DNA of 64,000 nucleotides, from positions 1,426,001 to 1,490,000 of the forward strand of contig JAOVFP010000014.1 in the NCBI GenBank assembly GCA_025738555.1, given 5' to 3'. The stretch comes from Cyathus striatus (taxonomy: Eukaryota > Basidiomycota > Agaricomycetes > Agaricales > Nidulariaceae). The notes below the pieces were generated by a model, which saw only the letters and a program-made list of their open reading frames with translations, ran no database searches and was not told where the DNA came from. Positions 6,721 through 60,834 of this stretch are shown here, one piece after another. Position 1 is the stretch's first letter. Each line of letters opens with the position of its first letter. The position numbers and the translations under genes are program-made.

Positions 6721-6725
6721 AGCCA

Positions 6726-6751
6726 TATATATAACAGTTAAGTATATATAT
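6726..6751 (+). promoter_or_regulatory. Probable TATA region of gene M1
   Basis: TATATATAA at 6726-6734 and a second TATATATA at about 6743-6750 lie roughly 75-100 bp upstream of the M1 start codon at 6827, a normal spacing for a fungal core promoter. M2 has TATTTAAATA (15241-15250) at a similar distance from its ATG. Confidence 0.4.
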
Positions 6752-6826
6752 GCCCTGTAGCTTGATGGAAGTATCGCTACACCTTACGCGCAGTTCTCTA
6801 CACTTCTGTCGTCATTGCACTGTAGA

Positions 6827-24168: not shown

Positions 24169-24479
24169 TTCCTACTTCTTTCCCTTCTTCCCTTTTTTGT
24201 CAGAGATAGTGTGGGGTATTTATAAGTCTATGTTTAGTAGTGGGTATGGGGGAGGTGAAATGGAAATGATATGGGGAGGGTTGGAGTGCAGTGGACTGTG
24301 CTCCACTGGGCATGTACAGTTAAGGCTGTACCCATGTGCCATGTGCCATGGGAGGGTGTTGGTAAATAAATGCAAATTTATGGTCCTTTTTGGCATTGGA
24401 GGGGTGTCAGCCAATTTGATCATATAACAGCAGTGTTATATGATTGCCCCAATCATACAAGCCATGCCACTATATGATT

Positions 24480-25090
24480 GGGATCATAAACAATCATTGA
24501 TCTTTTCTAATTGAATATTAGCATAAATGGTTAGGCAATCATAAACAATCATTGATTTTTCTAATTGAATATTATTATTGTATGGATGGTGAGGTGATCA
24601 TAAACAATCATTGATGTTTTCTAATCCAATATTAATATTGAATGGTAGTTAGGCAATCATAAACAATCATTGATTTTTTCTAACTGAATATTATTATTGT
24701 ATAGATGGTTAAGCAATCAGAGACAATCATTGATTTTTCTAATTGAATATTAGTATGAATGGTTAGGCAATCAGAGACAATCATTTATTTTGAATATTAT
24801 TATTGTATGGATGGTGAGGTGATCATAAACAATCATTGATGTTTTCTAATCCAATATTAATATTGAATGGCAGTTAGGCAATCATAAACAATCACTGATT
24901 ACTACTAATTGAATATTAGTATGGGTGGTTAAGCAATCATAAGCAATCATTGATATTTTATAATTGAATATTATTATTGTATGGGTGGTGAGGTGATCAT
25001 AAACAATCATTGATTTTACTAATTGAATATTAGTATAGATGGTTAGGCAATCATAAGCAATCAATGATAACTACTAATTGGATATTACTA
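24480..25090 (+). repeat. H1 left outer array, ~60 bp units
   Basis: About ten units of the type AATCATAAACAATCATTGAT followed by TTTTCTAATTGAATATTATTATTGTATGGATGG-like sequence. The mirror image is at 27600-28110. AT-rich and non-coding. Confidence 0.75.
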
Positions 25091-25094
25091 CAGT

Positions 25095-25590
25095 ATGGAT
25101 TTGTCACATTTCCTCATGTGTCACGATTGTCACACATATTCCCGCGCCTCACATATTTCCCGCGCTTCACACATTTCTCACGCATCCCATATTTCCCGCG
25201 CATCACACATATTCCCACGCCTCACATATTTCCTGTGCATTACATATCTCCCACATGTCACGCTTTTCACATTCTTCGTGTGTCACAAGTGTCACATATA
25301 TTCCTGTGCTTCATGTTAGCTATGTGCGTCACACTTTCATATATTCCCACATGTCACATTTGTCCTGCGCGTCACAATAGTCACATATATTCCCGCGCTT
25401 CATCTTAGTCACACACATCACCATTGTCACATATGTTCTCACGCATCACAATTGTCACATACATTCTCGCGCTTCATGTTTGTCACGTGCGTCACGGTAT
25501 TCCCACGCGTCACCGCTTTCATGTGCGTCACATTTGTCACACTTTTAGCGTTCGTCACACTTGTGACATTGCTACATTTGTCATGCTTTG
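25095..25590 (+). repeat. H1 left inner array, GTCACA/TTCCCGCGC units
   Basis: Irregular ~17-34 bp units built from TTTGTCACA and ATTTCCCGCGCATCACAT. The mirror image is at about 26990-27600. Three overlapping frames of 74-114 residues rich in His and Ser arise here and are artefacts. Many CpG sites remain intact. Confidence 0.75.
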
Positions 25591-26959: not shown

Positions 26960-28110
26960 TTATAAAGCATGATTATTAAGGTGTAAAGCATAAAAAATGT
27001 AATGAAATGACAAATGTGAGAAATATGACATGCATAAAAAGTGTGACTAATGTGAAGCATGGAAATGTATGTGACAATTGTAATGCATGGGACAAATGTA
27101 GCGATGTGACAAGCGTGACAAGCGCTAAAAACGTGACGAATGTGATGTGTGTGATATACATGAAAAGCGTGACTAATATGAAGCGCGGGAATGTATGTGA
27201 CAATTGTGACGCGCGGGGATACCATGACGCACATGACAAACATGAAGCGCGAGAATGTATGTGACAATTGTGATGCGTGAGAACATATGTGACAATGGTG
27301 ATGTGTGTGACTAAGATGAAGCGCGGGAATATATGTGACTATTGTGACGCGCAGGACAAATGTGACATGTGGGAATATATGAAAGCGTGACGCACATAGC
27401 TAACATGAAGCACAGGAATATATGTGACACTTGTGACACACGAAGAATGTGAAAAGCGTGACATGTGGGAGATATGATGTGAGGCGTGGGAATATGTGTG
27501 ATGCGCGGGAAATATGGGATGCGCGAGAAATGTGTGAAGCGCGGGAAATATGTGAGGCGCGGGAATATGTGTGACAATCGTGACACATGAGGAAATGTGA
27601 CAAATCCATACTGTAGTAATATCCAATTAGTAGTTATCATTGATTGCTTATGATTGCCTAACCATCTATACTAATATTCAATTAGTAAAATCAATGATTG
27701 TTTATGATCACCTCACCACCCATACAATAATAATATTCAATTATAAAATATCAATGATTGCTTATGATTGCTTAACCACCCATACTAATATTCAATTAGT
27801 AGTAATCAGTGATTGTTTATGACTGCCTAACTGCCATTCAATATTAATATTGGATTAGAAAACATCAATGATTGTTTATGATCACCTCACCATCCATACA
27901 ATAATAATATTCAATTAGAAAAATTAATGATTGTTTATGATTGCCTAACTATTCATACTAATATTCAATTAGAAAAATCAATGATTGTCTCTGATTGCTT
28001 AACCATCTGTACAATAATAATATTCAGTTAGAAAAAATCAATGATTGTTTATGATTGCCTAACCATTTATGCTAATATTCAATTAGAAAAGATCAATGAT
28101 TGTTTATGAT
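26960..28110 (-). repeat. H1 right arm arrays, mirror of 24480-25590
   Basis: Reverse complement of the left arm, base for base over long stretches. A visible difference is a deletion of about 17 bp near 27475 relative to the left copy (25210-25250). Confidence 0.75.
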
Positions 28111-28201
28111 CCCAATCATATAGTGGCATGGCTTGTATGATTGGGGCAATCATATAACACTGCTGTTATATGATCAAATTGGCTGACACTTATGGGCATC
28201 A

Positions 28202-33083: not shown

Positions 33084-35427
33084 AGGCTCTTTACACTTAG
33101 CCATGTGTTCTGTACAGATCCGCACGGAATCCGTGCGGAATCCGTACGGAATTTTCGGAGTCCGTGCGGAATCTGCACAGATTTTTTTCATTTTGGCAGA
33201 GGTTTTTTTGGGTCTGTACAGATTCCGCACAGATTCCGAAAATTCCGTACGGATTACACGGAATTCCTCGGAATTCCGCATTACAGACCTGAAAATTCTG
33301 TACAGATTCTGTACAGAATCTGTACAGAATTTTATTATACTTGTTTCCTTGCATGTGACACACTGCATTAAGCATGACACTAGGTGTTGAGTGTGATACT
33401 AGGTGTTGAGTGTGACACTATACGTTAAATGTGACACTATAAGCGTGACACTAGGTGTTGAGTGTGACACTATACATTAAATGTGACACTATAAGCGTGA
33501 CACTAGGTGTTGAGTGTGATACTAGGTGTTGAGTGTGATACTATACATTAAATGTGACACTATAAGCGTGACACTAGGTGTTGAGTGTGATACTAGGTGT
33601 TGAGTGTGATACTATACATTAAATGTGACACTATAAGCGTGACACTAGGTGTTGAGTGTGATACTAGGTGTTGAGTGTGATACTATACATTAAATGTGAC
33701 ACTATAAGCGTGACACTAGGTGTTGAGTGTGATACTATACATTAAATGCAATACTATAAATGTGACACTATATGTTAAATGTGACACTATAAGCGTGACA
33801 CTAGGTGTTGAGTGTGATACTAGGTGTTGAGTGTGACACTATATGTTAAATGTGACACTATAAGCGTGACACTAGGTGTTGAGTGTGACTAAGCGTGACA
33901 CTAAGTGTTGAGTGCGACTAAGCGTGACACTAAGCGTTGAGTGTGACACTAGGTGTTGAGTGTGACACTAGGTGTTGAGTGTGATACTAAGCGTTGGGTG
34001 TGACACTAAGTGTTGAGTGTGACACTAAGCATTGAGTGTGACACTAAGTGTTAAGTGTGATACTAAGCATTGAGTGTGACACTAAGCATCTAGGTGTTGA
34101 GTGTGACTAAGCGTGACACTAAGTGTTGAGTGCGACTAAGCGTGACACTAAGCGTTGAGTGTGACACTAGGCGTTGAGTGTGACACTAGGTGTTGAGTGT
34201 GATACTAAGCGTTGGGTGTGACACTAAGTGTTGAGTGTGACACTAAGCATTGAGTGTGACACTAAGTGTTAAGTGTGACACTAAGCATCTAGGTGTTGAG
34301 TGTGACTAAGCGTGACACTAAGCGTTGAGTGTGACACTAGGCGTTGAGTGTGACACTAGGTGTTGAGTGTGACACTAAGCGTTGAGTGTGACACTAAGTG
34401 TTGAGTGTGACACTAAGCATTGAGTGTGACACTAAGTGTTAAGTGTGACACTAAGCATTGAGTGTGACACTAAGTGTTGAGTGTGACACTAAGTGTTGAG
34501 TGTGACACTAAGTGTTGAGTGTGACACTAAGTGTTGAGTGTGACACTAAGTGTTGAGTGTGACACTAAGTGTTGAGTGTGACACTAAGCATTGGGTGTGA
34601 CACTAAGCATTGAGTGTGACACTAAGCGTTGAGTGTGACACTAAGCATTGGGTGTCACACTAAGCGTTGAGTGTCACACTAAGCATTGAGTGTGACACTC
34701 TGCATTGAGTGTGACACTAAGCGTTGAGTGTGACACTAAGCGTTGAGTGTCACACTAAGCATTGAGTGTTACACTAAGCATTGGGTGTGACACTAAGCAT
34801 TGAGTGTGACACTCTGCATTAAGCGTGACACTAAGCGTTGAGTGTGACTAAGCGTGACACTAAGTGTTGAGTGTCACACTATACATTAAACATGACACTA
34901 TGCATTAAGTGTGACACTATACATTAAACATAACACTATACATTAAGCATGACACTAAGTATTGAGTGTGACACTATGCATTAAGCATAACACTAAGTGA
35001 TGAGTGTGACACTCTGCATTAAGTGTGACACTAAGTGTTGAGTGTGATACTATACATTAAGCATAACACTATGCATTAAGTGTGATACTATGCATTGAGA
35101 ATGATACTATATATTGAGTTTATCATGGATTTTGTATAGTGTGACACTTTTCACCTAGAGTTACACTTGACATGTGTGACAAGGCAGCAATGCATAAATC
35201 CACACAGAATCCATGCAGAATATGTATGGAATCCATATAGAATAATTACCTCTAATAATAATAATAGCTACTATATAAATTCTGTATGGTATCTATACAG
35301 GTCTGTACGGGTCTGTACGGATCCGCACGGATCCGTACGGAATTTTCGGATTCCGTGCGGATTCCGTACGGATCCGTGCGGATCCGTACAGATCCGTACA
35401 GACCTCTTGGGGGAGTGTAAATTACTG
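33084..35427 (+). mobile_element. Element C: satellite-filled TIR element
   Basis: Ends AGGCTCTTTACACTTAGCCA and, reverse complemented, CAGTAATTTACACTCCCCCA, matching element D in inverted order. Inside each end lie 200-250 bp of CCGTACGGA/CCGTGCGGA palindromic motifs, and the centre is a 1.8 kb satellite. No target duplication is visible (TACTCTGC left, AGAAAAAG right), unlike D. No protein is encoded; the ~90-115 residue frames in the CCGTACGG zones are artefacts. Confidence 0.7.
33359..35160 (+). repeat. 19 bp satellite GAGTGTGACACTAAGCGTT in element C
   Basis: Tandem units of 19 bp (GAGTGTGACACTAAGYRTT). At the left (about 33425-33740) a 71 bp higher-order unit made of GACACTATAAGCGTGACACT plus related monomers repeats about four times. 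To the right the array is plainer, and after 34860 it decays. The same satellite, inverted, fills element D. Confidence 0.9.
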
Positions 35428-45300: not shown

Positions 45301-46615
45301 TCAACTAGTAATCAGTAATAGCAATACATAAATGAGTGCCAATGATCACCTTCTAATATTCTTAAAATGATCACTTTTGAGTGTCCTCATACTATACTAA
45401 TATAATCCCCTAGTTGTCAATAGCAATAGATAAATGAGTGCCAATGATCACCACTCCATTACATTTACTGAATATGCCTTATAAAAATGGCACTCATTTT
45501 TTTGGTGGAGAATCAGGATCACTAGCACTCATTTTTCCTGAGCAATTTGTGATCAAATTGGCTGACACTTGTATCGCAGCCTATCCCAACCCAACCCCCC
45601 AGCCACCCAACACCCCCCCTCCTCCCCCACCCCCCCAAAAAGAAAAGAACTCACTAAGCTCAACATGCTTAGAATCAACAACACTAGCCAACACAGCCTG
45701 TCTCATTGTCATCGCTTCAGTACCCCCCCCTCCTCCTCCCACTCCTCCCAGTGTACTAGCCCCCTCAGGGAGAGGAAGCGGGAGAGGGAGAGGAGTAGAT
45801 TCTTCCTCCTCAAGTTCAGCTTCGACTTCTGCTTCCGTGTTGTCGTTGTCTAAGTCTTCTGATTCTGGGAAGGGAAAGGGGTATGATGATGATGGGGATT
45901 CTATGTCTGTTGAGGGGGTGTCAGTGAATCATAAGGAAGGGGAAGAAAGAAAAGAGTAAAGAGAAGAAAATAAAACATACATTGCCCAACAGGCCTCCTA
46001 GTCCTCTTCGGACTCTCAACTTTCCCCCTCTCAATAACCCTCTTAACAACTCTCTCAACCTCCCTCTCCTCCCCCCCATCCCTATTAGGCATGAGCATAA
46101 CTTTCCTCACCTTCCTCCCTCCTCCACTTCCTCCCTGTCTGCGGCGCACATGTTTCGCAGGGGACCCCCTGTTTGGCAAGTGCTTGGAAGGCTGCTGTAT
46201 AGTGGGTTGTTATGTGCATTGCTGGGTGGGGTGGTAAGAGATAAGGCCCAGTCAAAAGTCACGCAGGCCTGGTCCGGCAACATCCAGAAATTACAGTTGC
46301 ATCTGACGTTCTGTAATTTTCGGATTTTTTCTTGATTTTGATATCTTTTCTGGATTGAAAACGGTTCTCAACAGTTCTCAACCATTTTTATCTGACACAA
46401 TACACATATTCACATTACAATAATTTCAGTTTATTACAGTAATGTACAGGAATTAACAGATTCATCTGTACACTATGGATACTCGATACCACTTAGAAAA
46501 AATACATAACATCCCACCTAATAGCCATGATAGGCCCAAGAAAATACAACACTATGATGTACCAAGAAGTGGAAACCATGGAAAATGACTAAAGCTATTA
46601 AAAAGCAGATAATTG

Positions 46616-48828
46616 CAGTAATTTACACTCCCCCAAGAGGTCTGTACGGATCTGTACGGATCCGCACAGATCCGTACGGAATCCGCACGGAATCCGAAAA
46701 TTCCGTATGGATCCGTGCAGATTCCGTGCAGATCCGTACAGACCCGTACAGACCTGTATAGATACCATACAGAATTTATATAGTGGTTATTATTATTATT
46801 AGAAGTGATTATTCTATATGGATTCCATACATATTCTGCATGGATTCTGTGTGGATTCATGCATTGCTGCTTTGTCACAGGTGTCAAGTGTGACACTACA
46901 CAAAATCTGTGATACACTCAATATATAGTATCATGCTCAATGCATAGTGTCATGCTTAATGTATAGTGTCACACTCAACACTTAGTATTACACTTAATGT
47001 ATAGTTTCATGCTTAATGCATAGTGTCACACTCAACACTTAGTATCACACTTAATGTATAGTGTCATGCTTAATGCATAGTGTCACACTCAATGCATAGT
47101 GTCATGCTTAATGCAGAGTGTCACACTCAACACTTAGTATCATGCTTAACCCTTAGTGTCACACTCAACACTTAGTATCACACTTAACCCTTAGTGTCAC
47201 ACTCAACCCTTAGTGTCACACTTAATGCAGAGTGTCACACTCAATGCTTAGTGTCACACTCAATGCTTAGTGTCACACTCAACACTTAGTGTCACACTCA
47301 ATGCATAGTGTCACACTCAATGCTTAGTGTCATGCTGAACTCTTAGTGTCACACTCAATGCTTAGTGTCACGCTGAACTCTTAGTGTCACACTCAACCCT
47401 CAGTGTCACACTCAACCCTCAGTGTCACACTCAACCCTCAGTGTCACACTCAATGCTTAGTGTCACACTGAACACTTAGTGTCATGCTCAATGCTTAGTG
47501 TGACGCTCAACTCTTAGTATCATGCTAAACCCTTAGTGTCACAATAACTGCGGAGTGTCACACTCAACGCTTAGCATCACACTCAACGCTTAGTATCATG
47601 CTTAACCCTTAGTGTCACACTCAACACTTAGTGTCACACTTACTGCAGAGTGTCACACTCAATGCTTAGTGTCACACTCAACACTTAGCGTCACACTCAA
47701 CCCTTAGTGTCATGCTTACTGCAGAGTGTCACACTCAACACTTAGTGTCACACTCAACCCTTAGTATCATGCTTAACCCTTAGTGTCACACTCAACACTT
47801 AGTGTCACGCTTAACCCTTAGTGTCACACTCAACACTTAGTATCACACTCAACCCTTAGCGTCACACTTAATGCAGAGTGTCACACTCAATGCTTAGTGT
47901 CACACTCAACACTTAGCGTCACACTCAACCCTTAGTGTCACGCTTAACACTTAGTGTCACACTCAACACTTAGTGTCACACTCAATGCATAGTGTCACAC
48001 TCAATGCTTAGTGTCATGCTGAACTCTTAGTGTCACACTCAATGCTTAGTGTCACGCTGAACTCTTAGTGTCACACTCAACCCTCAGTGTCACACTCAAC
48101 ACTTAGCGTCACACTCAACCCTTAGTGTCACGCTTACTGCAGAGTGTCACACTCAATGCTTAGTGTCACACTCAACACTTAGTGTCACACTCAACCCTTA
48201 GTATCATGCTTAACCCTTAGTGTCACACTCAACACTTAGTGTCACGCTTAACCCTTAGTGTCACACTCAACACTTAGTGTCACACTCAACCCTTAGCGTC
48301 ACACTTAATGCAGAGTGTCACACTCAATGCTTAGTGTCGCACTCAATACTTAGTGTCACACTCAACGCTTAGTGTCACGCTTAACCCTTAGTGTCACACT
48401 CAATGCATAGTGTCACACTTAACCCTTAGTATCACACTCAACACTTAGTGTCACAATCAATGTATAGTGTCACGCTTAACCCTTAGTGTCACGCTTAACT
48501 CTCAGTGTCATGCTTAACTCTTAGTGTCACGCTTAATGCAGAGTGTCACACTTAGTGCTTAGTATCACACTATTTTCTATTCTAATTTTCCATAAGGAAA
48601 TAAGTATAATAAGATTCTGTACAGAATTTTTCAGGTCTGTAATGCGGAATTCTGCGGAATCTGCACGGAATTTTTGATTCTGTGCGGAATCTGTGCAGAA
48701 TCTGTACAGACCCAAAAAAACCTCTGCCAAAAAGAAAAAAGTCTGTGCAGATTCCGCACAGATTCTGAAAATTCCATACGGATTCCGTGCGGATCCGTAC
48801 AGAACACCTGGCTAAGTGTAAAGAGCTC
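46616..48828 (-). mobile_element. Element D: satellite-filled TIR element with exact 8 bp TSD
   Basis: Ends CAGTAATTTACACTCCCCCA and, reverse complemented, GAGCTCTTTACACTTAGCCA. Exact flanks GATAATTG at 46608-46615 and 48829-48836. CCGTACGGA/CCGTGCGGA zones (46640-46870, 48610-48805) bracket a 1.7 kb satellite. It is the inverted counterpart of element C and is nested in L1. No protein is encoded. Confidence 0.9.
46880..48570 (-). repeat. 19 bp satellite in element D
   Basis: Plus-strand units AGTGTCACACTCAACRCTT and variants, the reverse complement of the element C satellite. Variation is mostly at CpG/TpG/CpA positions. Non-coding. Confidence 0.9.
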
Positions 48829-48836
48829 GATAATTG

Positions 48837-49525
48837 TGAGTATATTGGACAGGCGACTGACAGCTTCTCACCAGAAGTGTCTCAGAAGGGTGATATTGTC
48901 ATGGCATTCCTGAAAAAACACATAAGTAGGATGCCATATCAGTGGACAGCAGCTCACATCTACTGTTTCTTCTTCACACACACATCATATTCCTATAATA
49001 AATCAAATAAGAAAATATAATAGCAGAAGATGAAACGAACTTACATCTTTGATGGACTGAGGAACTAATGCTGTCCAGACAGCGTTAAAATCGGCTAACA
49101 TTGTGTTCAGATATATATCTCTGTATTCTGATGCATAGAGGTTTCTGTTGAAAAAGGTTAGAAACAGTAATTAAACATATATACGGCTTACTTGGCACTT
49201 CGAGCACCAGTGATCTTCATCGGTGCCCCTTTCTTGCCTTTCACTGATGATCATGTTGGAGGTGGAGGAAATCGGGCTGGTCCCTGATCCAACTTGCATG
49301 GATCGGTTGGATCTGGAGGGGATACTTGTAGGCTGGGCTGGACAGTTGGCTGGGGCAGTGAAGTGGGGCTTGGAATGGCAGGTGGCAACAAAGAGGGTAA
49401 TGTTGAAGGCGATGAAGCACCAGTAGCGGGGGGTGGGGGTGGAGGTGGGGAGAGCAATCTTGTTGGCGGTGACTTAGAACTATCATGACTTGAAGCCGGT
49501 GGCGATGAAGCTTTGGTACTGGGAG
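48837..49525 (-). pseudogene. Gene fragment in L1 with Pro/Ser-rich segment, unknown
   Basis: Minus-strand frame from 49525: SSPPASSHDSSKSPPTRLLS, a proline run, then GKKGAPMKITGARSAK ending at a GTAAG donor near 49197; next exon NLYASEYRDIYLNTMLADFN...ALVPQSIKD (about 49145-49045) with a donor. A TGA (from CGA by C-to-T) stands before the lysine-rich part. H3 cuts its 5' side and D its 3' side. Splice sites and codon use suggest a real gene piece. The family is not recognised; it could be captured or native to the transposon. Confidence 0.45.
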
Positions 49526-49859
49526 TGAGGGGTGTCAGCCAATTTTTTCATTAAATGCCTAGGTTTTATGATCATGGTGATCATATAAGCTAGGCATTTT
49601 TTTTATGATCACCCACTATTATATATGTAGTATTGAATGTATGATTAGTATTGAATGTATAGGTGATCTTAAGTGATCTTTCAGTGTTTTAGTAGTGTTT
49701 CAGGTGGATATTCACTTACTACTGGTACTATTGAATCTACAGGTGATCATAAGTGATCATTAGGTGTTTCAAGTACATATTCACTTATTACTGGTACTAA
49801 AGAATGTATAGGTGATCATAAGTGATCATTATATATTACAATAGTATATTATTTTGGGT

Positions 49860-50600
49860 AATATCACATTTGTCACGCATCCGCACGCGTCACAATTGTC
49901 ACATCATTCCCGCGCTTCGCAAATTTCCCGCGCATCATATTTGTCACATCATTCCCGAGCGTCACGCATTTCCCGTGCACCACATTTGTCACGCATCCAC
50001 ACGCGTCACATTTGTCACATCATTCCCGCGCTTCACGCATTTCTCGCGCATCACGCATTTCCCACGCATCACATTCGTCACACATTCACGCACTTCGCAT
50101 TTGTCACGCATTCGCACGCGTCACATATGTCACATCATTCCCGCGCATCACGCATTTCCCACGCATCACATTCGTCACACATTCACGTGCGTCACAATTG
50201 TCACATCATTCCCGCGCTTCACATATTTCCCGCGCATCACGTTCGTCACATTTGTCACATCACCCCTGCGCTTCATATATTTCCCACGTATCACATTTGT
50301 CACATCATTCCCGCGCTTCACGCATTTCTCGCACTTCACATTTGTCACACATCCACGCACGTCACAATTGTCACATCGTTCCCGCGCTTCACATATTTCC
50401 CGCGCATCACATTTGTCACACATTCACACGCTCATCCCCGCGCTTCGCATATTTCCCGCGCCTCACATTGTCACACATTTCCCACGCGTTACACATTTGT
50501 CACGCTTTAACGTGTTTGTTATGCTTTGGAAGCGCGTCACATGTCACATTTGTCACGTTTTACTTGAGCGTCACACATGTCACATGTGTCACATTTATGA
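49860..50600 (+). repeat. H3 left inner array
   Basis: Units ATTTGTCACATCATTCCCGC + GCTTCACGCATTTCCCGCGC and relatives, ~34-45 bp. Three overlapping His/Ser/Ala-rich frames of 211-265 residues are artefacts of the repeat length being compatible with all frames. Confidence 0.85.
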
Positions 50601-50609
50601 GGAGTGCCA

Positions 50610-51735
50610 TACATTTTAAGCACATTGTGCTTGCATGTGTGTCATGATTGTAGCATGTTGATGGTATTCCAACAAGTCTATAATGAAAATGTTTTTATAC
50701 TTTTTACAGATCCTATCAATAACAATACTGCACATGACTATGGAGAAGTAATAGTAAGTTGTTTTAGGCAAGAGAGAAGAAAAGGCAAAAGGCCTTAAGT
50801 GAATAAATACTAAACTAAAGAATAGAAAAGCAAGTAATCACTGCTGCACAAGAATGTGTAGAGAATTATAAGAGGTGGTTTTCATATGTATAAATGACTG
50901 ATACTAAAAGAGCAATATCACATATGTCAGAAAAGTGAAACACATATGACAGTGTAGAAGTGTCATGTAATCATACCAAGTAATCATATATGTGACTCAA
51001 TAATGTGTGTTGAAGATATAAGAATAAGTAATGGTTGATACAAGAATCATAACCATCTAATGACTGAGACATGTGAATTTGATGTGATTTGGGATCACAT
51101 ATATTCACCATTCTTTCACATTTGTCATGCATGTGTTGTTCTTTCATAGCCTCATCATCTCTCATATCCAGACAAACCATTATAGTTTTTACTTTGTTAT
51201 TTCATTACATCTCTAGACCTCATATAAAACATCTCATACCATCTCATTCTCAAGTATCTCATGCTCTGTCAATAGTGCTAAGACTCCAACTACATAAACA
51301 CTCTACATATTTCATTGTAGTTTCTTATTACTACCACAATTCCATAACTCTCTGATTGTCATTTTCCATGTTAAGTCTTCCAATTCTACAAGTACATATT
51401 GTTTCCTATGCATTTATAATTTACTCTGTACCTTGGATACTTACTCCACTGTTATAGCAATTTCAATAGTTGCAGAGACAAATAAATCTCACATGATTGA
51501 GAAGTGTGACATTTGCAAAAAAGTTGCAACATGCTTGACAAACACAACATTTGTGAAAAACACATTATGTATCTCAAAAACATGGCAAATGTGCTGCACC
51601 TCAGAAATGTGGCTATTGCAGAATCATCAATGTAGAGTTGTCAATGCAAGAGCCTGAATTACATTACTAAACAATGGGTTGGGGGTTTAATGTAGCATTA
51701 CTGGGTGCTCTAATTCACTGATTGTGAAAAGTATA
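50610..51735. other. Unique centre of H3; nothing coding seen
   Basis: AT-rich loop of the palindrome. Short frames (51089-51355, 51433-51657) show no family resemblance. Confidence 0.45.
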
Positions 51736-51739
51736 GAAA

Positions 51740-52480
51740 CATGTGACATGCTTCCAAAGCATGACAAATGTGTAACGCGCGGGAAATATGCGAAGCGCGG
51801 GAATGATGTGACATATGTGACGCGCGCGAATGCGTGACAAATGCGAAGCGCGTGAATGTGTGACAAATGTGATGCGCGGGAAATATGTGAAGCGCGGGGA
51901 TGATGTGACAATTGTGACGCGCGTGGATGTGTGACAAATGTGAAGCGCGAGAAATGCGTGAAGCGCGGGAATGATGTGACAATTGTGACGCGCGTGGATG
52001 CGTGACAATTGTGATACGCGGGAAATATATGAAGTGCGGGGGTGATGTGACAAATGTGACGAACGTGATGTGCAGGAAATATGTGAAGTGCGGGAATGAT
52101 GTGACAATTGTGACGCACGTGAATGTGTGACGAATGTGATGCGTGGGAAATGCGTGATGCGCGAGAAATGCGTGATGCGCGAGAAATGCGTGAAGCGCGG
52201 GAATGATGTGACATATGTGACGCGCGCGAATGCGTGACAAATGCGAAGTGCGTGAATGTGTGACGAATGTGATGCGTGGGAAATGCGTGATGCGCGAGAA
52301 ATGCGTGAAGCGCGGGAATGATATGACAAATGTGACGCGTGTGGATGCGTGACAAATGTGGTGCACGGGAAATGCGTGACGCTCGGGAATGATGTGACAA
52401 ATATGATGCGCGGGAAATTTGCGAAGCGCGGGAATGATGTGACAATTGTGACGCGTGCGGATGCGTGACAAATGTGATAT
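51740..52480 (-). repeat. H3 right inner array, mirror of 49860-50600
   Basis: Reverse complement of the left array with local unit gains and losses. The frames of 204-269 residues on the minus strand mirror those of the left arm. Confidence 0.85.
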
Positions 52481-52940
52481 TACCCAAAATAATATACTAT
52501 TGTAATATATAATGATCACTTATGATCACCTATACATTCTTTAGTACCAGTAATAAGTGAATATGTACTTGAAACACCTAATGATCACTTATGATCACCT
52601 GTAGATTCAATAGTACCAGTAGTAAGTGAATATCCACCTGAAACACTACTAAAACACTGAAAGATCACTTAAGATCACCTATACATTCAATACTAATCAT
52701 ACATTCAATACTACATATATAATAGTGGGTGATCATAAAAAAAATGCCTAGCTTATATGATCACCATGATCATAAAACCTAGGCATTTAATGAAAAAATT
52801 GGCTGACACCCCTCATATGTTTGTGGACTGGACAATATGTAAGAATAATAAAGTACCATATTGTAGCGAGCCTAGCGAGCAACTAGTTAGGCTATATAAA
52901 TGTCCCCATAGTGTCCTATGTGCTGACTAGTGTAACAGCA

Positions 52941-53400
52941 TCAGAAGTCAATGTTGCGAGCTACACACTTGAACAATGCAATGGACCAACACTCCATGAA
53001 GAAGCTGTGGGCTCGAGTAATGAATATGAGAACCTGCGAGATACAGGTTCTGCTTGATATCAGCGTGGGGGAGATTGAAGATGGCAAGGAGACCAATAAG
53101 CTCGAAACCATTTCCTTCAGCCTCGTGGTCATCACCTTCAACTTTCTCAAATGCAACAGCGAGGTTCTCAATCTCATTGGTCTTGTTGCACATGCAAAGC
53201 TCAACAATGATTCCAGTCATACCCTTGGTGACACACTTAAGTTTGCCAGATGCCTTCTTGAGGTAAGTGATCTCGATACGCTTATCGACAGGGTTGAAAG
53301 GCTTGTAGTCCAGAAGCTTGATGCCGGCAGGCACCGACAGTGAGATTGATGGACAACACAGTGGGCATTGCAAGTGCGACATCAGGAAACGTCCCAGAAC
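52941..53400 (-). pseudogene. Captured fragment of plasma-membrane H+-ATPase (nucleotide-binding region)
   Basis: The minus-strand frame contains AGIKLLDYKPFNPVDKRIEI, SGKLKCVTKGMTGIIVELC and EVEGDDHEAEGNGFELIGLL, diagnostic of the N-domain of fungal Pma1-type P-type ATPases (proton export at the plasma membrane). It breaks off after LLAIFNLPHADIKQ into unrelated sequence, and an internal stretch (normally RGLRA before LAVA) is missing. The upstream catalytic DKTGT part is absent. It belongs with 54675-55120, but other gene pieces lie between. Confidence 0.8.
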
Positions 53401-53712
53401 TCCCCTTCCCACCCTGCCCCTGCCCCCCACCTTGTCCTTGTTGCCCAGGCTGCTGGAGCGCAGAGGCAAGAGGCATCATACTTAGGGCTTCATCCTGCAT
53501 TATGCACCTGTGAGGGGGAATTTGATGTGTTGGAATTGGAGTGAATGCACTATTCGTTGCGTCAGCGGTGATATAGGAAATGAAGAAGAGAAAGAAGAAT
53601 GTACTTCCAACAAGGCCTCGGCGCTTCCTGAAACCACTTATGGAACAGCACTTGACACGCTGTAAGCCTATTATCAGGGTTATACGCAAAGAGGTGCTTG
53701 AGGAGGTCATAG
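53400..53712 (-). pseudogene. Captured fragment resembling a CDK8/SSN3-type kinase C-terminus
   Basis: One minus-strand frame reads DLLKHLFAYNPDNRLTACQV then LFHKWFQEAPRPC, typical of the last helices of a cyclin-dependent-like kinase domain. After an intron-like stretch with GTACAT...ACAG, another frame reads HQIPPHRCIMQDEALSMMPL followed by Gln/Gly-rich sequence, resembling the tail of fungal CDK8 (Mediator kinase). The two parts are in different frames, consistent with an intron. The catalytic core is absent, and the sequence passes directly into the H+-ATPase piece. Confidence 0.55.
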
Positions 53713-53713
53713 C

Positions 53714-54010
53714 CTAGTGGCGAAAACACGTGCGAGAGACACCATTCTTGGAGCTAGACACAGTTTCAGTGTTCCCCTGAGCCCCATTCGAAGAAATCGG
53801 CACAGTAGACATAGCCAATGGCCCCTCAGTGCTCTTCTCAACCCTCGAATGCCCAGGAACTTGGATCATCGTCGAGTCAACCACCTTGGACAACGACGGT
53901 ACAGGTTCATTGGAACCAATCTGTGCAGTAGACACCTCAACCTCCACCTCCCCAGTGATCATCCCAGAACCAGTGTCATTCAACGCATTCTCCAGAGTAG
54001 TTCTGAAGCT
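53714..54010 (-). pseudogene. Captured coding-like fragment, unknown
   Basis: An 89-residue frame (NDTGSGMITGEVEVEVSTAQ, then Ser/Thr/Val-rich) that can be extended upstream as KSFRTTLENAL in the same frame. Good codon-like composition and no repeats. No family is recognised. It lies between the alcohol oxidase and kinase pieces in the same orientation. Confidence 0.35.
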
Positions 54011-54039
54011 CTTTTCATAGTATGATCCTCCATAGCCTG

Positions 54040-54650
54040 AGAATCACCCAATGTAGACTTAGACGAAGAGCCGGTGTCATGGTCGTCGATGGCCTTCTTG
54101 TCTTCCTCGGTGTACTTGGTACCAGGCTTATACCAGGTACCCATGTGGATGCCGACAGTGAAGCATTGGACAAGACTCCCTTTGCGGTCTTGATGTCGAT
54201 GTCCTTAGCCGCTGCAGGGGAGGCAGGGTGGAAGCATGAGTGGTGAGAAGTGGGTTCACCGTGGTGTGTGTCCATCCTCCTCGTGACCTCACATGTCTTC
54301 TTGTAACTCCAGTGGATGAGAGCGAAGTCGGCTTTGTCATTCATGAAGCCACTGTTGAAGAATGGCTCCTGGTATGGGTTGGCAGATTGGATGTGGATCT
54401 GGTATGATTGTGGTTAGTGTTATCTCTTTTGGCTGGAAAGGCACTTACTCTTCCATGACTAGCCAGGTATTCCTGTATGGAGGAGTATAAGTACTATATT
54501 GGGAACTATGTCCAGGGATTGCTTGCGGGGTACTGGAACATCGTGAGGTACTTGTTGGGTGGAAGCAGAGTGTGGTCGGCATAGGTGCCTGATACAATGG
54601 AATTGAACCTAGACCACTGTTAGCAGGGGTTACATCATCCCACAAATCAT
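54040..54650 (-). pseudogene. Captured fragment of alcohol oxidase (GMC oxidoreductase), C-terminal part
   Basis: Pieces in order: LLPPNKYLTMFQYPASNPW (near 54560), SSIQEYLASHGR, an intron of about 50 nt (GTAAGTGCC...ACCAG, near 54445-54395), then HIQSANPYQEPFFNSGFMND, KADFALIHWSYKK and a TSHH...FHPASPAA segment, and, one frame over, VGIHMGTWYKPGTKYTEEDK. This is the substrate-binding/C-terminal region of fungal methanol/alcohol oxidases (peroxisomal or secreted FAD enzymes that oxidise short alcohols to aldehyde with H2O2). The FAD-binding N-terminus and the catalytic His region are missing; stops and a frameshift break it. Confidence 0.75.
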
Positions 54651-54674
54651 GGGCATATGTCACTGGCTGACTGA

Positions 54675-55130
54675 CAAGGGATGAAGCGCGACCGAAGAAA
54701 GTGTTGGCACCGGTGGAAATGACAACACTTTCAGCCTCACCCTGCCTACAGGTGAATCCACTAAAATCAAAGTAGCCTGATCGATAGACATTGATTGCCT
54801 CAGTGAGATGACAGTTGGCAGGAACAATATCTCCAACCTTGAAAGAGGCCATATCACCAGGAACGAGATTGGTGGACTCAATTTCAGACCACGAGCCACC
54901 ATGCTTGATCTTTGCCTTGGGTGCGAGAGTCCATGAGAGCCTTTACAGCATTATCAGCATCCCTTTCTTCATAGAAGACAATACCAATGAAATCCTGCCA
55001 ATCGGGGGGGTTGCCTTGGCCGTTGGAGAGTACGATAGCAATAAGCATCAAGCTTTTTGCAAAACAAAAGGCAGAACTCTTGCTTTGCAATTTCTGCCCC
55101 ATGGCAGCGGCATTCATAGTCCTTCATCTG
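54675..55130 (-). pseudogene. Captured fragment of plasma-membrane H+-ATPase (actuator domain region)
   Basis: Reads [40 protein letters not shown], then one frame over [40 protein letters not shown] and LTEAINV, a TGES-loop remnant SIDQATLILVDSPVG (the TGES motif lost), and QGEAESVVISTGANTFFGRA. Order matches Pma1 membrane segment 2 to the end of the actuator domain. Membrane-segment residues between GIV and FYEER are deleted. The matching nucleotide-binding piece lies 1.3 kb further on (52941-53400). Non-functional. Confidence 0.85.
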
Positions 55131-55439
55131 CTTGTCCCCATGTCTTGAAAACACCCATGGGACGAGCAGTCACACTCTCCACATCCCTTGTCAACTTCGT
55201 AACACCCCTATAGCTTTAATCCACCCCACATGCGCATCCAAGGTATTCAAAATGAACTATCGCTCAGTAGCTTCATTGGGAGATGGGAGAGGGACAGTCG
55301 TTGGCTGTTCGAGTGCACATAGGAGCATGCATGTTGCATCGATGGATGGATGTGATGCATTTCGGATATTCGACAAATTCCTGCTCTGTGTTAGCTACCT
55401 AGCTTGGTAGAGTAGAACTGTAAAGATGAATCCGTTTTA

Positions 55440-55620
55440 CTGTCCCATTCCTTTCCTCCTCTCCACACACTGACAAAGGCATTGAACCATGGCTTCACAC
55501 TGTGGCTCACAACAGTATGTAAACTCTCACATGGGGTTTCGGTTACTGAATTGCCAACAAGCCGCTGGCGGTGGCATTCACCAGGCCAACTAGAGATTAA
55601 CCTAGAAATACAAGGTCAAA
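55440..55620 (-). pseudogene. Captured coding-like fragment, possibly dynein-like
   Basis: A 53-residue open minus-strand frame contains GECHRQRLVGNSVTETPCES followed by LHTVVSHSVKPWFNAFVS, which is vaguely like the N-terminal tail of fungal dynein heavy chains, where a PxESLH...V.PYF.A motif occurs. Too short to be sure. Lies between transposase copy 1 and the H+-ATPase piece. The adjacent 55130-55440 includes another coding-like patch (LTRDVESVTARPMGVFKTW) of unknown origin. Confidence 0.25.
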
Positions 55621-56064
55621 ATCAAAATAATAATGTATCAAAGGCACTTACAGACTGTACACATTCTTGCATTGAGTGTCTCCTGCCCCTTTTCTCCATG
55701 CACATGTCGACTACCAGACGTCGATTTTCAGAGCTGTCAAGTCACTTCCTAAAAAAATCCAGTGTACCATAGCAGGAGTCTGAGGGCCAGTTGTAAGAGC
55801 TTGAAGTAGTAGAGAAGAGTGTTGAGAAAGAAATAATCCAACTGTGATGGACAGTGAACAACAACATCACGTGATATTTGACGTGGCATATCCGACCATT
55901 ACCTCTACCAAAGATAAATTAAGTCTGCTTTCAACTGCTTTTGTACCACACAATAAGGTAAGAAACAAAAAAACATGTAAGATACATATACAGCAGTAGA
56001 ATATATAGAATTATTTTATTTTCAAGTAAGCACAAGAAAGACAATATTAAATTCAGTTACAAGA

Positions 56065-59000
56065 CTATTGTTCATCATTCTCTTCTTCTTCATTTTCATC
56101 TTCTTCATTCACCAAAATCTCTATGTCAAAGTCATCCATCCCAGGCTTCTCAATGACAAACCACAAATCCTCTGCTTCACCAGGAAAAAAAGGTAGCTCT
56201 TGCATTGATACAAGGCAAATAATATCTTGTACTTCGATCACTTGCAGATTTTCTAAACCTTGGTAGCTACAAGCCCAGATAGTTTGGAATGATTCTTCCA
56301 GTAACACTGGATCGGGGGGAGAGTAGAGGGACACCAAAGCATAGGCTTGCTCACCCATTGGGGATTGTTCAAGAAAATAGAATTGAACTTCACCATACTC
56401 TATGTTCTCATTGATATTAATCTACAAATAATATGTCAGAACATGTAAGTCACAAAAAAAAGTACATTGAATTTACCTTAATGTTTCTAGCTATATGCAC
56501 CCTATGCTTGGTATAGGCCTTCTCCTTCCAGATGGAATGTATCTGTTGACCATTGGGAAGCTGCAATTCTGCCCAGTGCTGTATTTGTGCATGCCCTATA
56601 GTTCTTGAGATTACTTCACCCTCAATTCCTTCTATATCTGTTTTATAGCAATCTCTCTTTGGATGAAGAGTAAAACCATTGCCTAAATCATAAGCACCTT
56701 GAGGAATTTTCTTCTGAATTGACTTGTTAAATTCAGGACACATGCTTTGAAGTGCATTTGTTTGAGCTCGATGTAAACCTTGCTGGGAAAGGTTTGCAAA
56801 GGGATTAGATGGCTGCTTTACTTCTTCACTTAGATTACCAATAGTCCTTTCAATGGTAAACTGAGTTGAATAACAACCTGAACCAACACGGGCTACTTCT
56901 GGAGCAAGGTGAAGGAGTGTATGAATACATGGAGGACAAAAATGAATCTGATCAACATGGCATTGATAGTAAATATCCTCAAACTCTTCTGCTGTCTGGA
57001 CTAGGCTGGTATGAGCATCTTGAAGTTCTTCATCAGAGATGGTTCACTGTAAGATGATGCGCACACCATGAGTTAGACGGCAAAAGTTATGCCAATATTC
57101 CTGAGGCAAAATAACTCTGTAGCTTTATAGCCACTATTAAGCTTCTCTGCTGGGTTGCGAGGAGGTTGACTAAAGGATGTAGGGAAATTTTGTGTGCAGT
57201 CTGCAATTGCCTTGCCATGCTCTGTCCATGTATCTCCAATAAGTTTCATCCAAGGCCAATCCAATTTACTATCTGTTCATTCACATGAGATTGTTCCACG
57301 CCAAAGACTTAAAAGTAGCTCAGGAATATTGAGCTTCAGGAGATGCATGAGGTCCAAGACCCAACAGTGTGGAACAGGTGGCATTAGTGTTGGATTCAGC
57401 CCTGAAAAGATAGTTGGCTTGCTAAGACCTGTTTCTTTCCTGTTATGGCAGTACTGAGCTTGAGTTGTGGAGGTAGAAATAGTAGCAAGGTCCCTAAGAT
57501 AGTCTTCAACATTTCCTGTCTGGAGATTCCTAATATCAACATCAGGATGATCACATCCTGGTATTGCATCTGAAGGATGATTATGTGGTAAATGATAATG
57601 ACCACTACCAGGCTTGTGTCTGCCTTTTGTCTGGCAGTGCATTTGGCATGCTTTAGCCCCATGGTGACCAACCTGTCCATCAATTTCTGGCATCCCTAAT
57701 GCATCAGCCATTCCCATCAAAAAAGCAGCTCAAGAATATATAACTTTTTCCTTGGAAGCATCCCAAACACACATACCATGACCATTATTCTCCTTTTGTA
57801 GAGCAGAGAGATGGTGTAAGCCACAAAAAAGAAATGTGTCCATGTTTTTGGGTTTCCAGGGACCAGGAATAAAGCATCCAGGTAAAACACTCCTTTTCTT
57901 GTAATGACTGCTAGGATGTAAATCATCAATAATCCAAATGGATATCCAAGTATCTGAAGCTTTATTTTGGTAGAGTTGACAGCCATCAAGAGATAGTGAG
58001 ACAACAACATCATCTTCGGTAAGATGAGCTCTCTGATGAAGATCAAGGTATTCTGAACCACAGAAAATATCATCATAACTGTAATCTTCATCTTCATTCA
58101 AATTAAGAATATTCATTGTCTTCTGATGCCGATAACCCATAGCAGAGGACCCCTCAGGTGATCAGTGAAGTGCCTGGAGCTGAGGTCCAAGTAATATAGT
58201 GTGAAATTGTTGTCATGGAATCAGATCCCTGCCATCTGATTCCTCAAATTGCTGTTGATCATAACATGGCTCTGAACAAATAGAGCATAATATATCATCT
58301 GCAAATGGTCCTGTAAAAGCAAGACAGGAATTGATACACATGTCATCAACCATGGAAATAACTCCAGTTATTTCAGTAACAAGTTTCTTTACATGATAGT
58401 ATGAAAGTAGTGACTCTTCAGGATGATGACGAAGATAGGCATCTCGAATAGCATCATATGTCTCTTGAGATGCATTTGTTACAGCTAGAAAGAAGTCAAT
58501 AGAAAGTCGAATGGCTGGATCTGATATATCCACAGGTTCCTCTATTGGATTTTGGAGACGAAAGATAGTGTCTTCATCAAGATTTCCATTTTCTAGAGTA
58601 GCAGCTTTTATCTCCTTGATGAGCTGCTGTGGTATACGTACACTTTCAATATTTAACAGCACATCTGAATTTTCTTCCACAGGATCATCCTCTTCTCGTA
58701 CATCCTGCTGAAGTGGGGGGAAGTCCTGATCATGCTGTTCTTCTTCACCTTCAAGATCAGGTAAGAAATCATTGCGCTGAAACTCCTGCTCCATATCCTC
58801 TAAGTTCCCAGGATCTTCCTCATTGAAAGTATGGTTATAAGGACCATTTCGTAGTTCCTCATTGAATGTGGGAGACGGTGAGCAACTTTCATTTGATGAG
58901 CTCAATGATGTAGACTAAATTACAATACAAGAACATATGAATACAATAGTCATAGCAGTAAGAGAATTATAAGTATATAAAAAACATACAGAAATGCTTC

Positions 59001-59169
59001 GAGAACGCTTCTGGGTAGCAGAAGAACTATGCTCAGCTACCCATGAATTAAAAGAAGGCACCAGTCCTAATTCTTGTGGCCTACCACCATGGTGATTTCT
59101 CACCTGCTTACTGACTTCTGCACCTTTGCACTTTCTGCAGTAACACGGTACCCTTTCTCTTGGTGCCAT
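56065..59169 (-). pseudogene. Tnp2-type (EnSpm/CACTA-like) transposase, copy 1, decayed
   Basis: Exon 1 (59169-58991) starts MAPRERVPCYCRKCKGAEVS, a CxCxxC zinc-like motif. Intron ~58990-58916. Exon 2 includes an acidic segment, EITGVISMVDDMCINSCLAF, then GHHGAKACQMHCQTKGRHKPG, DIRNLQTGNVEDY, ETGLSKPTIFSGL and PHCWVLDLMHLLKLNIPELL, characteristic of Tnp2/Transposase_21 proteins. Last exon (56400-56065) ends in an acidic tail EEDENEEEENDEQ after a clean GTAAAT...TTGTAG intron. Lesions: TGA after DGRDLIP (shared with copy 2), TGA after KVIYS (57727), TGG to TGA before TDSKLDWP (57277), and a ~46 bp deletion after GYKATE. It is the original coding cargo of L1; ATG lies 1.1 kb inside the right end. 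Confidence 0.85.
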
Positions 59170-59179
59170 TAGTTTAAGT

Positions 59180-59620
59180 GTAGATGCTAAGGGAAAAAGA
59201 ACGTAGGAGGGCATGTGGAAAGAGAAGGCATGTGGACACAGAGAGTGGGCGCGAGGCGCATAGAGAGAGTGCGAGGCAAGTAGAGAGAGCACGAGGCAAG
59301 CAGAGAGAGGGCACGCGTTGAGAGAGAGTACATGTAAAGAGAGGATGCGTGGAGAGAGAGAGCACACATAGGGAGAGGGGGCCTGGAGAGAGAGAGCATG
59401 CGTAAAGTGACAACACATTGAGAGAGGGGGCATGTAGTGAGGACACGCAGAGAGAGAACACGTAGAGAGAGAGGGTATGTAAAGAGAGAGTGCATGTAAA
59501 GTGATGACACATTGAGAGAGGGGGCATGTAACGAGGACACACAGAGAGAGAATGCATAGAGAGGTGTGTAAAGCAAGGACACATTGAAAGAGAGGGCGCA
59601 GGTGCAGAGGATCAAGCTGG
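59180..59620. repeat. GAGAGAG-based minisatellite upstream of transposase copy 1
   Basis: Irregular units with GAGAGAGAGNRCATG and GTAAAGTGA/CACATTGAGAGAGGGGGC. On the minus strand it is a pyrimidine-rich leader just upstream of the transposase ATG. The 136-172 residue frames over it are artefacts. Confidence 0.65.
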
Positions 59621-60310
59621 TGGTAATGTTACATTAGTTATGGACAACAACAAAAGTGGTCAACAGAATTAGCATACCTTTGGCTTGGATGGAAGAAGTT
59701 GGGTTTTGTTGAGCTATCTAGCCACTCCAAGATTGTGGCTGAATATGTGCCAGAATGAACAAGGTGAGATCAAGATAGATTGAAGCCATAGGCAGAGTTA
59801 CATTATATCAGTTATGGAGCAGGAGGTGATGATGACTGTGATAGACATACCTTTTTAATGAATTTTTAGGGAATTTAATCCCTCCAAGATCGGGACTGCA
59901 AAGTACTTGAAGCAGCAAGGCAAGAGCAAGAGTTACGAGAGCTTCGGAAGGCAAGAGCAAGGAGAAAGCAAGAGCAAGGAGAACGAAGAGAGGGGGAGAG
60001 AGAGAGGCTAGCACAATGGTGAAGGTAGGTAGGGGCAGCAATAAGCTACTGTGCCCCGAGAGAGAAAGGCAGCAAGATGAGAGTACCTTTACCAGGAAGA
60101 TAGCAATGGGAGAAGGTGTGGGGGAGAGAAAGAAACTAGTGTGAGTAAACAGCATAAACATGTTGACGCGCACTGGCCATATTACTCAGTGATGAACCAT
60201 GCACATGAGCAAACAGAATGCTGCACGGATTTGCCTGCTGGAACCGGTAACTCCCAGAAATTGCACAATGCGCCAGACCAGGCCTGTGCGACTTTTGACT
60301 GGGGATAAGG

Positions 60311-60605: not shown

Positions 60606-60834
60606 CCCAGTCAAAAGTTGCACAGGTGTGGTCTGACATGTCCAGCGTGTTCTGAAATATTTGGGAGTTACCGTTACTAGCAGGTAAATCCGTGCCGCAT
60701 TCTGAAAATGGTACATTGACTAAGCTTGGTCTGTGCGTATTGCTGCACTTTCTGACTAAGATACTGACTGTGCTTCTTCGCCTTCATGGTTTCTCTCTTT
60801 ACTGTGCCTCTCTCTCGCTCTCTCTTTCTCTTGA

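Follow-up and report, generated by a model that had tools for sequence, protein, structure and literature searches.

The stretch of DNA analysed here (the window) covers 64 kb of contig 14 of the Cyathus striatus genome (C14:1426001-1490000), which has been assembled in 24 contigs with a total length of 107 Mb. Positions are given in window coordinates unless a contig (C1-C24) is named, and element coordinates run in the orientation of the transposase. The main feature is a 14-kb transposon, L1 (46247-60303), which contains a broken transposase gene of the Tnp2 type, fragments of five host genes and two nested repeats. A neighbouring element, L2, starts at 60606 in the orientation opposite to L1, and copies on contigs 7, 3 and 22 are named C7e, C3e and C22e. 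L1 is very probably a dead member of a cut-and-paste family with a Tnp2-type transposase, CCCAGTC ends and a 7-bp target site duplication, in which a multi-gene DNA cargo was captured before the sister copies split and later decayed. Genome-wide comparisons were made within this one assembly.

Structure of L1 and its family

The sequence CCCAGTCAAAAG is present as an exact match at 46247 (plus strand) and 60303 (minus strand), the two ends of L1, and a third exact match at 60606 (plus strand) marks the start of L2. Shuffled controls, with up to one mismatch allowed, gave a mean of 0.36 matches, and one of 100 reached three. The terminal inverted repeats are at least 21 bp long (46247-46267, plus strand, and 60283-60303, minus strand) and give L1 the termini CCCAGTC..GACTGGG. 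Directly outside both ends lies the 7-bp duplication GATAAGG (46240-46246 and 60304-60310, plus strand). When the flanks are joined with a single GATAAGG, they align to a paralogue at 10.5-12.0 kb in which the insert is absent at about 11559-11580 (plus strand), and the 7-mer of this empty site departs from GATAAGG by at least one base. L2 runs on the plus strand from 60606 past the end of the window (64000) to the contig position that would be 70972 in window numbering, and is flanked by CGTCATG/TGTCATG, a duplication with one mismatch. Its joined flanks align without the insert to the same paralogue (86.5% over 363 bp), with an empty site of its own at about 11864-11885. L1 is a genuine transposon, and both L1 and L2 have truly inserted into a single copy of a segment that is repeated locally. 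Paralogous pieces of this kind, about 69-92% identical, are found in the window at 222-20278, 10.6-12.6 kb, 22.7-24.4 kb, 45.6-46.1 kb and 60.3-60.6 kb; they form a local segmental duplication, one segment of which received both elements.

The original prediction, made from the letters of the window, had described L1 by its matching inverted ends, GATAAGG on both sides and an empty site, and all three are confirmed by direct reading, with the empty site in the paralogue at about 11.56 kb. It had also named two findings that would speak against a capture element, namely ends belonging to different elements and fragments lying in place as decayed genes. The matching duplications and the empty sites contradict both, although no relative's genome was compared, and because of them the two ends are those of one element.

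Two unrelated nested repeats fill about 5.5 of the 14 kb. The first (46616-48828, plus strand) is a high-copy repeat that contains a 19-bp satellite array and has the 8-bp duplication GATAATTG on either side (46608-46615 and 48829-48836); the left copy of this duplication forms the last 8 bases of the left subterminal region of L1 (46268-46615, plus strand). The array was rejected as a subterminal repeat of L1 itself, as it belongs to this nested repeat with its own duplication; a second copy of the repeat is found, inverted, at about 33086-35427. The other nested repeat (49526-52815, plus strand) has long inverted arms, at least 198 matching pieces (best 40 of 965 candidates scored) and no recognised target duplication. 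Since both are unrelated insertions, the sequence of L1 itself is about 8.5 kb and consists of family end sequence, cargo and transposase gene. Between the two repeats lies left-half family sequence (48837-49525, plus strand), common to the short members C2:6595798, C12:3623626 and C19:1167733 and partly to L2 and C7e. A second long inverted-repeat element is present in the window at 24404-25513 and 27206-28189; its arms are 95% identical and its arrays resemble those nested at 49526-52815.

The original prediction had proposed a search for further family ends. A genome scan with the 21-bp end pattern, allowing at most two mismatches, gave 76 matches, against 2 for the reversed pattern used as a control. 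Duplications were tallied for 29 facing end pairs, allowing at most one mismatch between the 7-mers (with all four bases equally frequent, the chance of such a match is 0.0013 per pair); unpaired ends were excluded, as was C1:1997816/2016947, where the outer flanks are identical and inverted. These two C1 ends (C1:1997816 and C1:2016927) lie 19 kb apart, which suggests an inverted duplication with one family end per arm. A 7-bp duplication was found in 23 of the 29 pairs and was exact in 19. Position 5 is A in all 23 duplications and position 3 is T in 17, giving the nearly palindromic target consensus NNTNANN. C7e (C7:1931161-1941330) is flanked by CTTTAAT, and two 9.1-kb members with end variants of their own, C3e (C3:6419247-6428332) and C22e (C22:1877396-1886480), are flanked by ATTGAAG and GTTCAGC, respectively. 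This 7-bp duplication, longer than reported for the clade, is the least expected feature of the family; GATAAGG had been recorded in the original prediction, which missed that its length is unusual for a Tnp2-type element.

Host-gene fragments and sister copies

The cargo of L1 comprises about 2.6 kb within 52971-55541, in which fragments of five host genes mostly abut one another. The donors are a H+-ATPase, an alcohol oxidase, a CDK8-like kinase, a dynein heavy chain and an unnamed gene with a 961-codon stop-to-stop frame. A search of the genome with 52816-56064 gave 33 matches, and all 18 first-look candidates were scored. Each donor has a separate parental locus, from which the cargo differs by 9-25%. 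The Pfam domains at the parental loci are E1-E2 ATPase, GMC oxidoreductase, protein kinase and DHC_N1, and the 961-codon frame has no Pfam match; the labels CDK8-like, H+-ATPase and alcohol oxidase, more specific than what Pfam gives, are our own reading of the protein sequences.

All pieces lie on the minus strand, which is the transposase orientation. In element coordinates, the order starts with the dynein 5' part in four colinear pieces (4763-5257; window 55047-55541, 82-84% identical to the parent), followed by the H+-ATPase 5' part (5265-5636; 54668-55039, 81% and 91%) and the alcohol oxidase (5636-6222; 54082-54668, 86-89%). Next are the unnamed gene (6226-6553; 53751-54078, 84% to C6:5122561 and 91% to the C7e copy), the 3' end of the CDK8-like gene (6554-6911; 53393-53750, 88% and 85% to two parental loci on C2) and again the H+-ATPase (6931-7333), with its middle part in two pieces (53049-53373, 75% and 84%) and its 3' part (52971-53042, 79%). 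Of the 12 joins in L1, eight have 0-7 bp between the pieces, three overlap by 1, 3 and 17 bp, and one, between CDK8 and ATPase, has 19 bp; no long shared homology was seen at the 20 joins viewed by eye. Several copies or fragments of the CDK8-like donor are present within about 75 kb, at C2:6080495, 6120610, 6148228 and 6152546.

Overlapping patchworks are carried by the sister copies. The donor order in L2 is dynein, ATPase, alcohol oxidase and ATPase, and in C7e it is unnamed gene, dynein, CDK8-like, unnamed gene and ATPase. The alcohol oxidase adjoins the same ATPase region in L1 and L2, and each of the three elements has the ATPase as its final donor segment. Donor pieces in L2 are likewise all in transposase orientation, and C7e has one short inverted CDK8-like match, to one of two paralogues. 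The alcohol oxidase fragment of L2 is interrupted by a 739-bp insert (element positions 5044-5784) with a 10-bp parent overlap at its edges and 85% identity to C2:2407722-2408445, probably a small nested transposon. On C24, a locus similar to the left half of L2 and C7e, adjacent to the ATPase end, may be the relic of a further copy. Two inverted loci about 15 kb apart (C3:3167072-3167606 and C3:3182378-3182915), both 83% identical to the H+-ATPase fragment of L2, enclose a Tnp2 fragment (C3:3174213); this pair is perhaps another capture element or a donor.

The sister copies were compared pairwise with the parental locus, without an outgroup. In the unnamed gene, L1 and C7e agree against the parent at 28 sites (18 outside CpG), compared with 8 and 16 private sites, and have a 9-bp insertion in common. 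L1 and L2 agree against the parent at 18 alcohol oxidase sites (7 and 11 in two segments; 20 and 25 private), at 3 sites of the ATPase 5' piece (5 and 6 private) and at 11 dynein sites (4 and 7; 34 and 27 private), the weakest case. In the ATPase 3' end, 23 sites are common to C7e and L2 (18 and 25 private). Among the shared in-frame changes, 18 of 28 in the unnamed gene, 9 of 18 in the alcohol oxidase and 15 of 22 in the ATPase 3' end alter the amino acid, which fits unconstrained copies and argues that the changes arose in the elements and not in working parents. Because the sister copies have these substitutions in common, many of them amino-acid-changing, we conclude that capture began before L1, L2 and C7e split, with losses and rearrangement later. 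Overlapping cargo with shared changes is present at three places with three different duplications, indicating that the cargo moved after capture.

Independent capture of the same host genes by each sister element, at a spot prone to capture, is unlikely. Such an origin would fit the donor order and breakpoints, which differ among the three elements, and the few shared changes in dynein. Against it stand the shared changes and the common 9-bp insertion of L1 and C7e in the unnamed gene, the often amino-acid-changing substitutions in the alcohol oxidase of L1 and L2 and the ATPase 3' end of L2 and C7e, and the ATPase-alcohol oxidase neighbourhood that L1 and L2 have in common.

Since L2 and C7e carry overlapping patchworks, the cargo is not a recent acquisition by L1 itself. 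DNA searches with the cargo found no match in C3e and C22e, although such searches may miss copies as old as the transposase divergence. A better argument is that cargo and parent are only 9-25% apart, which favours capture after the subfamily split: this divergence is similar to that of the L1, L2 and C7e transposase regions (about 9-15% in DNA) and below the protein divergence of 29-30% to C3e and C22e.

The original prediction of several unrelated host-gene pieces captured by a Tnp2-type element is thereby borne out. Instead of at least three fragments in transposase orientation, five donor genes were found, all on the minus strand, and the parental genes it proposed to look for were identified as a separate locus for each donor. 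Its view that the cargo was acquired after the transposase holds in a weaker form, based on the divergence comparison, and does not hold as a recent gain by L1 alone, given that L2 and C7e share the cargo. The two nested repeats, capture at the DNA level and the sister copies had been missed.

The Tnp2-type transposase

The transposase gene of L1 (56453-58551, minus strand) consists of two blocks, 85-86% identical to the open frame of C7e and interrupted by four TGA codons and one TGA codon, respectively; an N-terminal open frame of the gene lies at 58213-58914 (minus strand). The single transposase named in the original prediction is therefore of the Tnp2 type and on the minus strand as described, but broken. 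In C7e the frame is open over 716 codons, and the L1 and L2 counterparts are interrupted by stops. The C7e protein matches PF02992 (Transposase_21) with an E-value of 9.1e-7 and 28.7 bits, compared with a cut-off of 28.6. Its residues D186, D397 and E579 follow the DDE order, where D186 may be the first catalytic D on our reading, and a CxxC motif (C550/C553) and a HxxxH motif (H555/H559) are present between the second D and the last E. Among 24 aligned homologues, D397, H555, H559 and E579 are invariant in all, D186 is present in at least 90%, and the full motif set in strict form is found in eight. The best database match is an annotated Cyathus striatus protein (88% identical across 76% of the query), and other named transposase matches are from Pleurotus, Coprinopsis and further mushroom-type fungi (best 120 of 456 matches).

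The Tnp2 gene is at the same place in L1, L2 and C7e, and the C3e and C22e transposases, 70-71% identical to that of C7e, are also encoded between family ends. Of 18 Tnp2 places compared with the listed ends, seven have a family end within 4 kb; these belong to L1, L2, C7e, C3e, C22e and a copy on C6. At the other 11 places no listed family end is present within 57 kb; they include a 68% copy on C19, relics on C23 and copies of at most 46% identity. One relic, at C23:342000-351900, has pieces 92-98% identical to L1, with none of the 76 listed family ends near, and its match ends at window 55800, near the edge between transposase and cargo. As a weak control, the 4.9 kb downstream of this relic gave at least 96 matches, none at the five donor loci (best 40 of 1532 scored), which we read as dispersed or local repeats.

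Another enzyme, such as a hAT transposase, could move the CCCAGTC family, with the Tnp2 gene as passenger DNA. hAT7 families make 7-bp duplications (PMC12730594), and a 14.7-kb family member at C5:2797151 holds a hAT-type gene, which counts against a Tnp2 mover. However, of the 44 places in the genome that match this hAT gene, only the query copy is within 13 kb of any of the 76 ends; the next nearest matches are 13.7 and 16.1 kb away and outside the elements. The C5 hAT gene was rejected as the mover, as its relatives are found only away from family ends, and it is most likely a nested insert. In addition, the Tnp2 genes hold the same place in L1, L2 and C7e and are also enclosed by the ends of C3e and C22e, which have differing end variants, and the first nine end bases, CCCAGTCAA, equal those of the Aedes TRC element of the CACTA superfamily (PMC1636069). 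A different mover is therefore quite unlikely, and the Tnp2-type enzyme is retained as the transposase of the family.

Capture, decay and relation to known elements

Introns in the cargo were called by eye from GT..AG borders and open frames. The alcohol oxidase fragment keeps two putative parental introns, one with an altered donor site, and the ATPase 5' part keeps the last bases, at the 3' end, of another. Because introns were retained, the cargo was captured from DNA and not from mRNA. Entry as cDNA, which would explain why all five L1 donors are in sense relative to the transposase and why some pieces skip stretches of the parent, is barely credible and was rejected: the introns contradict it, the part of dynein left out next to 55370 codes for protein and is no intron, and one orientation for five of five donors has a chance of 1 in 32, from which nothing firm is drawn.

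Substitutions relative to the parent are fairly flat over the three codon positions in the alcohol oxidase (17/8/17 in L1, 15/13/18 in L2) and the unnamed gene (14/14/14 in L1, 33/42/47 in C7e). CpG transitions amount to 0.20-0.43 per site, compared with 0.04-0.12 at other C or G, and are higher in eight of eight comparisons. For the most part, the cargo behaves like DNA that is methylated and non-coding. In C7e, the ATPase piece contains an open frame of 262 codons, whose hydrolase match does not reach the curated cut-off, and may be in coding use.

These observations are consistent with the following course of events. A Tnp2-type (Transposase_21) DDE transposase would use the CCCAGTC inverted ends and presumably itself make a 7-bp staggered cut at NNTNANN-like targets. 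The ancestor of L1, L2 and C7e would have taken in a H+-ATPase stretch just 3' of the transposase, and pieces of the alcohol oxidase, dynein, CDK8-like and unnamed genes would then have been added in or beside it, in an order that we infer. The joins resemble those of end-joining or template switching, and the simplest setting would be the repair of an excision gap or of an internal break in the element. The resulting composite would have been copied to new sites, and then decayed largely without coding constraint under CpG-biased, methylation-like mutation.

Several points weigh against this account. The Pfam support for Tnp2 is at the threshold, and the scores of 18 bits for the pieces of L1 and 19.2 bits for L2 are below the cut-off; close Tnp2 relics at C19:2083421 (68%) and on C23 (80-90%) have no listed end nearby. 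An aligned duplication is missing in six of the 29 pairs: at C1:1305442 and C19:1837490 the 7-mer is present but shifted by three extra bases at one end, and the flanks at C12:3623626, C5:584756, C24:93972 and C3:3967759 have no 7-bp match. Longer spacers are present at joins in L2 (22 and 46 bp) and C7e (33 and about 210 bp), the C7e donor order differs from that of L1, and dynein, with only 11 of 72 sites shared by L1 and L2, may have been captured separately. Some of the shared sites may, with no outgroup, be changes in the parent. The L2 ATPase piece is 81% identical to the C18 gene and slightly closer, at 83%, to the two C3 loci, and the C7e ATPase piece has an excess of third-position changes (11/5/23). 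The evidence comes from sequence, and no movement was observed.

Most known cases of gene-fragment capture by DNA transposons come from plants, where Pack-TYPE elements carry host-gene fragments as L1 does. L1 fits a gene-capturing, Pack-TYPE-like element, having fragments of separate genes between terminal inverted repeats with a target duplication. Captured gene fragments have also been described in plant CACTA elements (PMC8978399, in the part consulted), and L1 resembles these in having host-gene fragments inside a CACTA-type element. Unlike in these plant elements, the host of L1 is a fungus, and pieces of five donors follow one another with little spacer next to the transposase gene. For Pleurotus Helitrons, capture of host genes or their fragments is reported to be absent (PMC4289320, in the part consulted), and L1 was rejected as a Helitron, as it has terminal inverted repeats and a target duplication.

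The CMCT clade, the relatives of which include Transib and RAG1, has 2-5 bp duplications and in most cases CA..TG ends, Plavaka elements have 2-3 bp duplications and hAT7 elements 7 bp, according to the portions of a 2025 paper (PMC12730594) consulted. L1 family members resemble EnSpm/CACTA, Plavaka and other fungal CMCT elements in the order of the DDE residues, with CxxC and HxxxH ahead of the final E, as seen in the C7e transposase; the Transposase_21 domain is above the cut-off in C7e and below it in L1 and L2. They differ from the clade in their CCCAGTC..GACTGGG termini, which are neither CACTA nor CA..TG, and in the 7-bp duplication. The TGT..ACA or CATCA..TGATG ends and short duplications of Plavaka are absent, and hAT7 elements have the 7-bp duplication in common with the family but not the transposase.

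The animal TRC elements of the CACTA superfamily (SmTRC1 and Aedes aegypti TRC) have CCC ends, with CCCAGTCAAC in Aedes, and 2-bp direct repeats (PMC1636069). They are similar to the L1 family in the Transposase_21 domain, the CCC core, the first nine end bases and an element length of 9.2 kb; they differ in the 2-bp repeats, in contrast to 7 bp here, and no host-gene cargo is mentioned for TRC in the portions of PMC1636069 consulted. Limited literature searches on DNA-transposon gene capture with CACTA in basidiomycetes and on 7-bp EnSpm target sites found no papers. L1 is presented as a variant of a known element type and not as a first report, and 7-bp Tnp2 elements are not claimed to be absent from the literature.

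On balance, we lean slightly towards a distinct Tnp2-type lineage in which the enzyme's cuts are staggered by 7 bp around a TNA core and a spot beside the transposase gene is prone to capture, host DNA being repeatedly stitched in there and then spread genome-wide. At least five genes have contributed pieces to one fungal element, and as sister copies, parental loci and introns are all present in one assembly, the order of events can be worked out. If true, a 7-bp duplication in two Tnp2-type subfamilies would widen the cut geometry reported for the clade in the consulted part of PMC12730594, which is biochemically testable.

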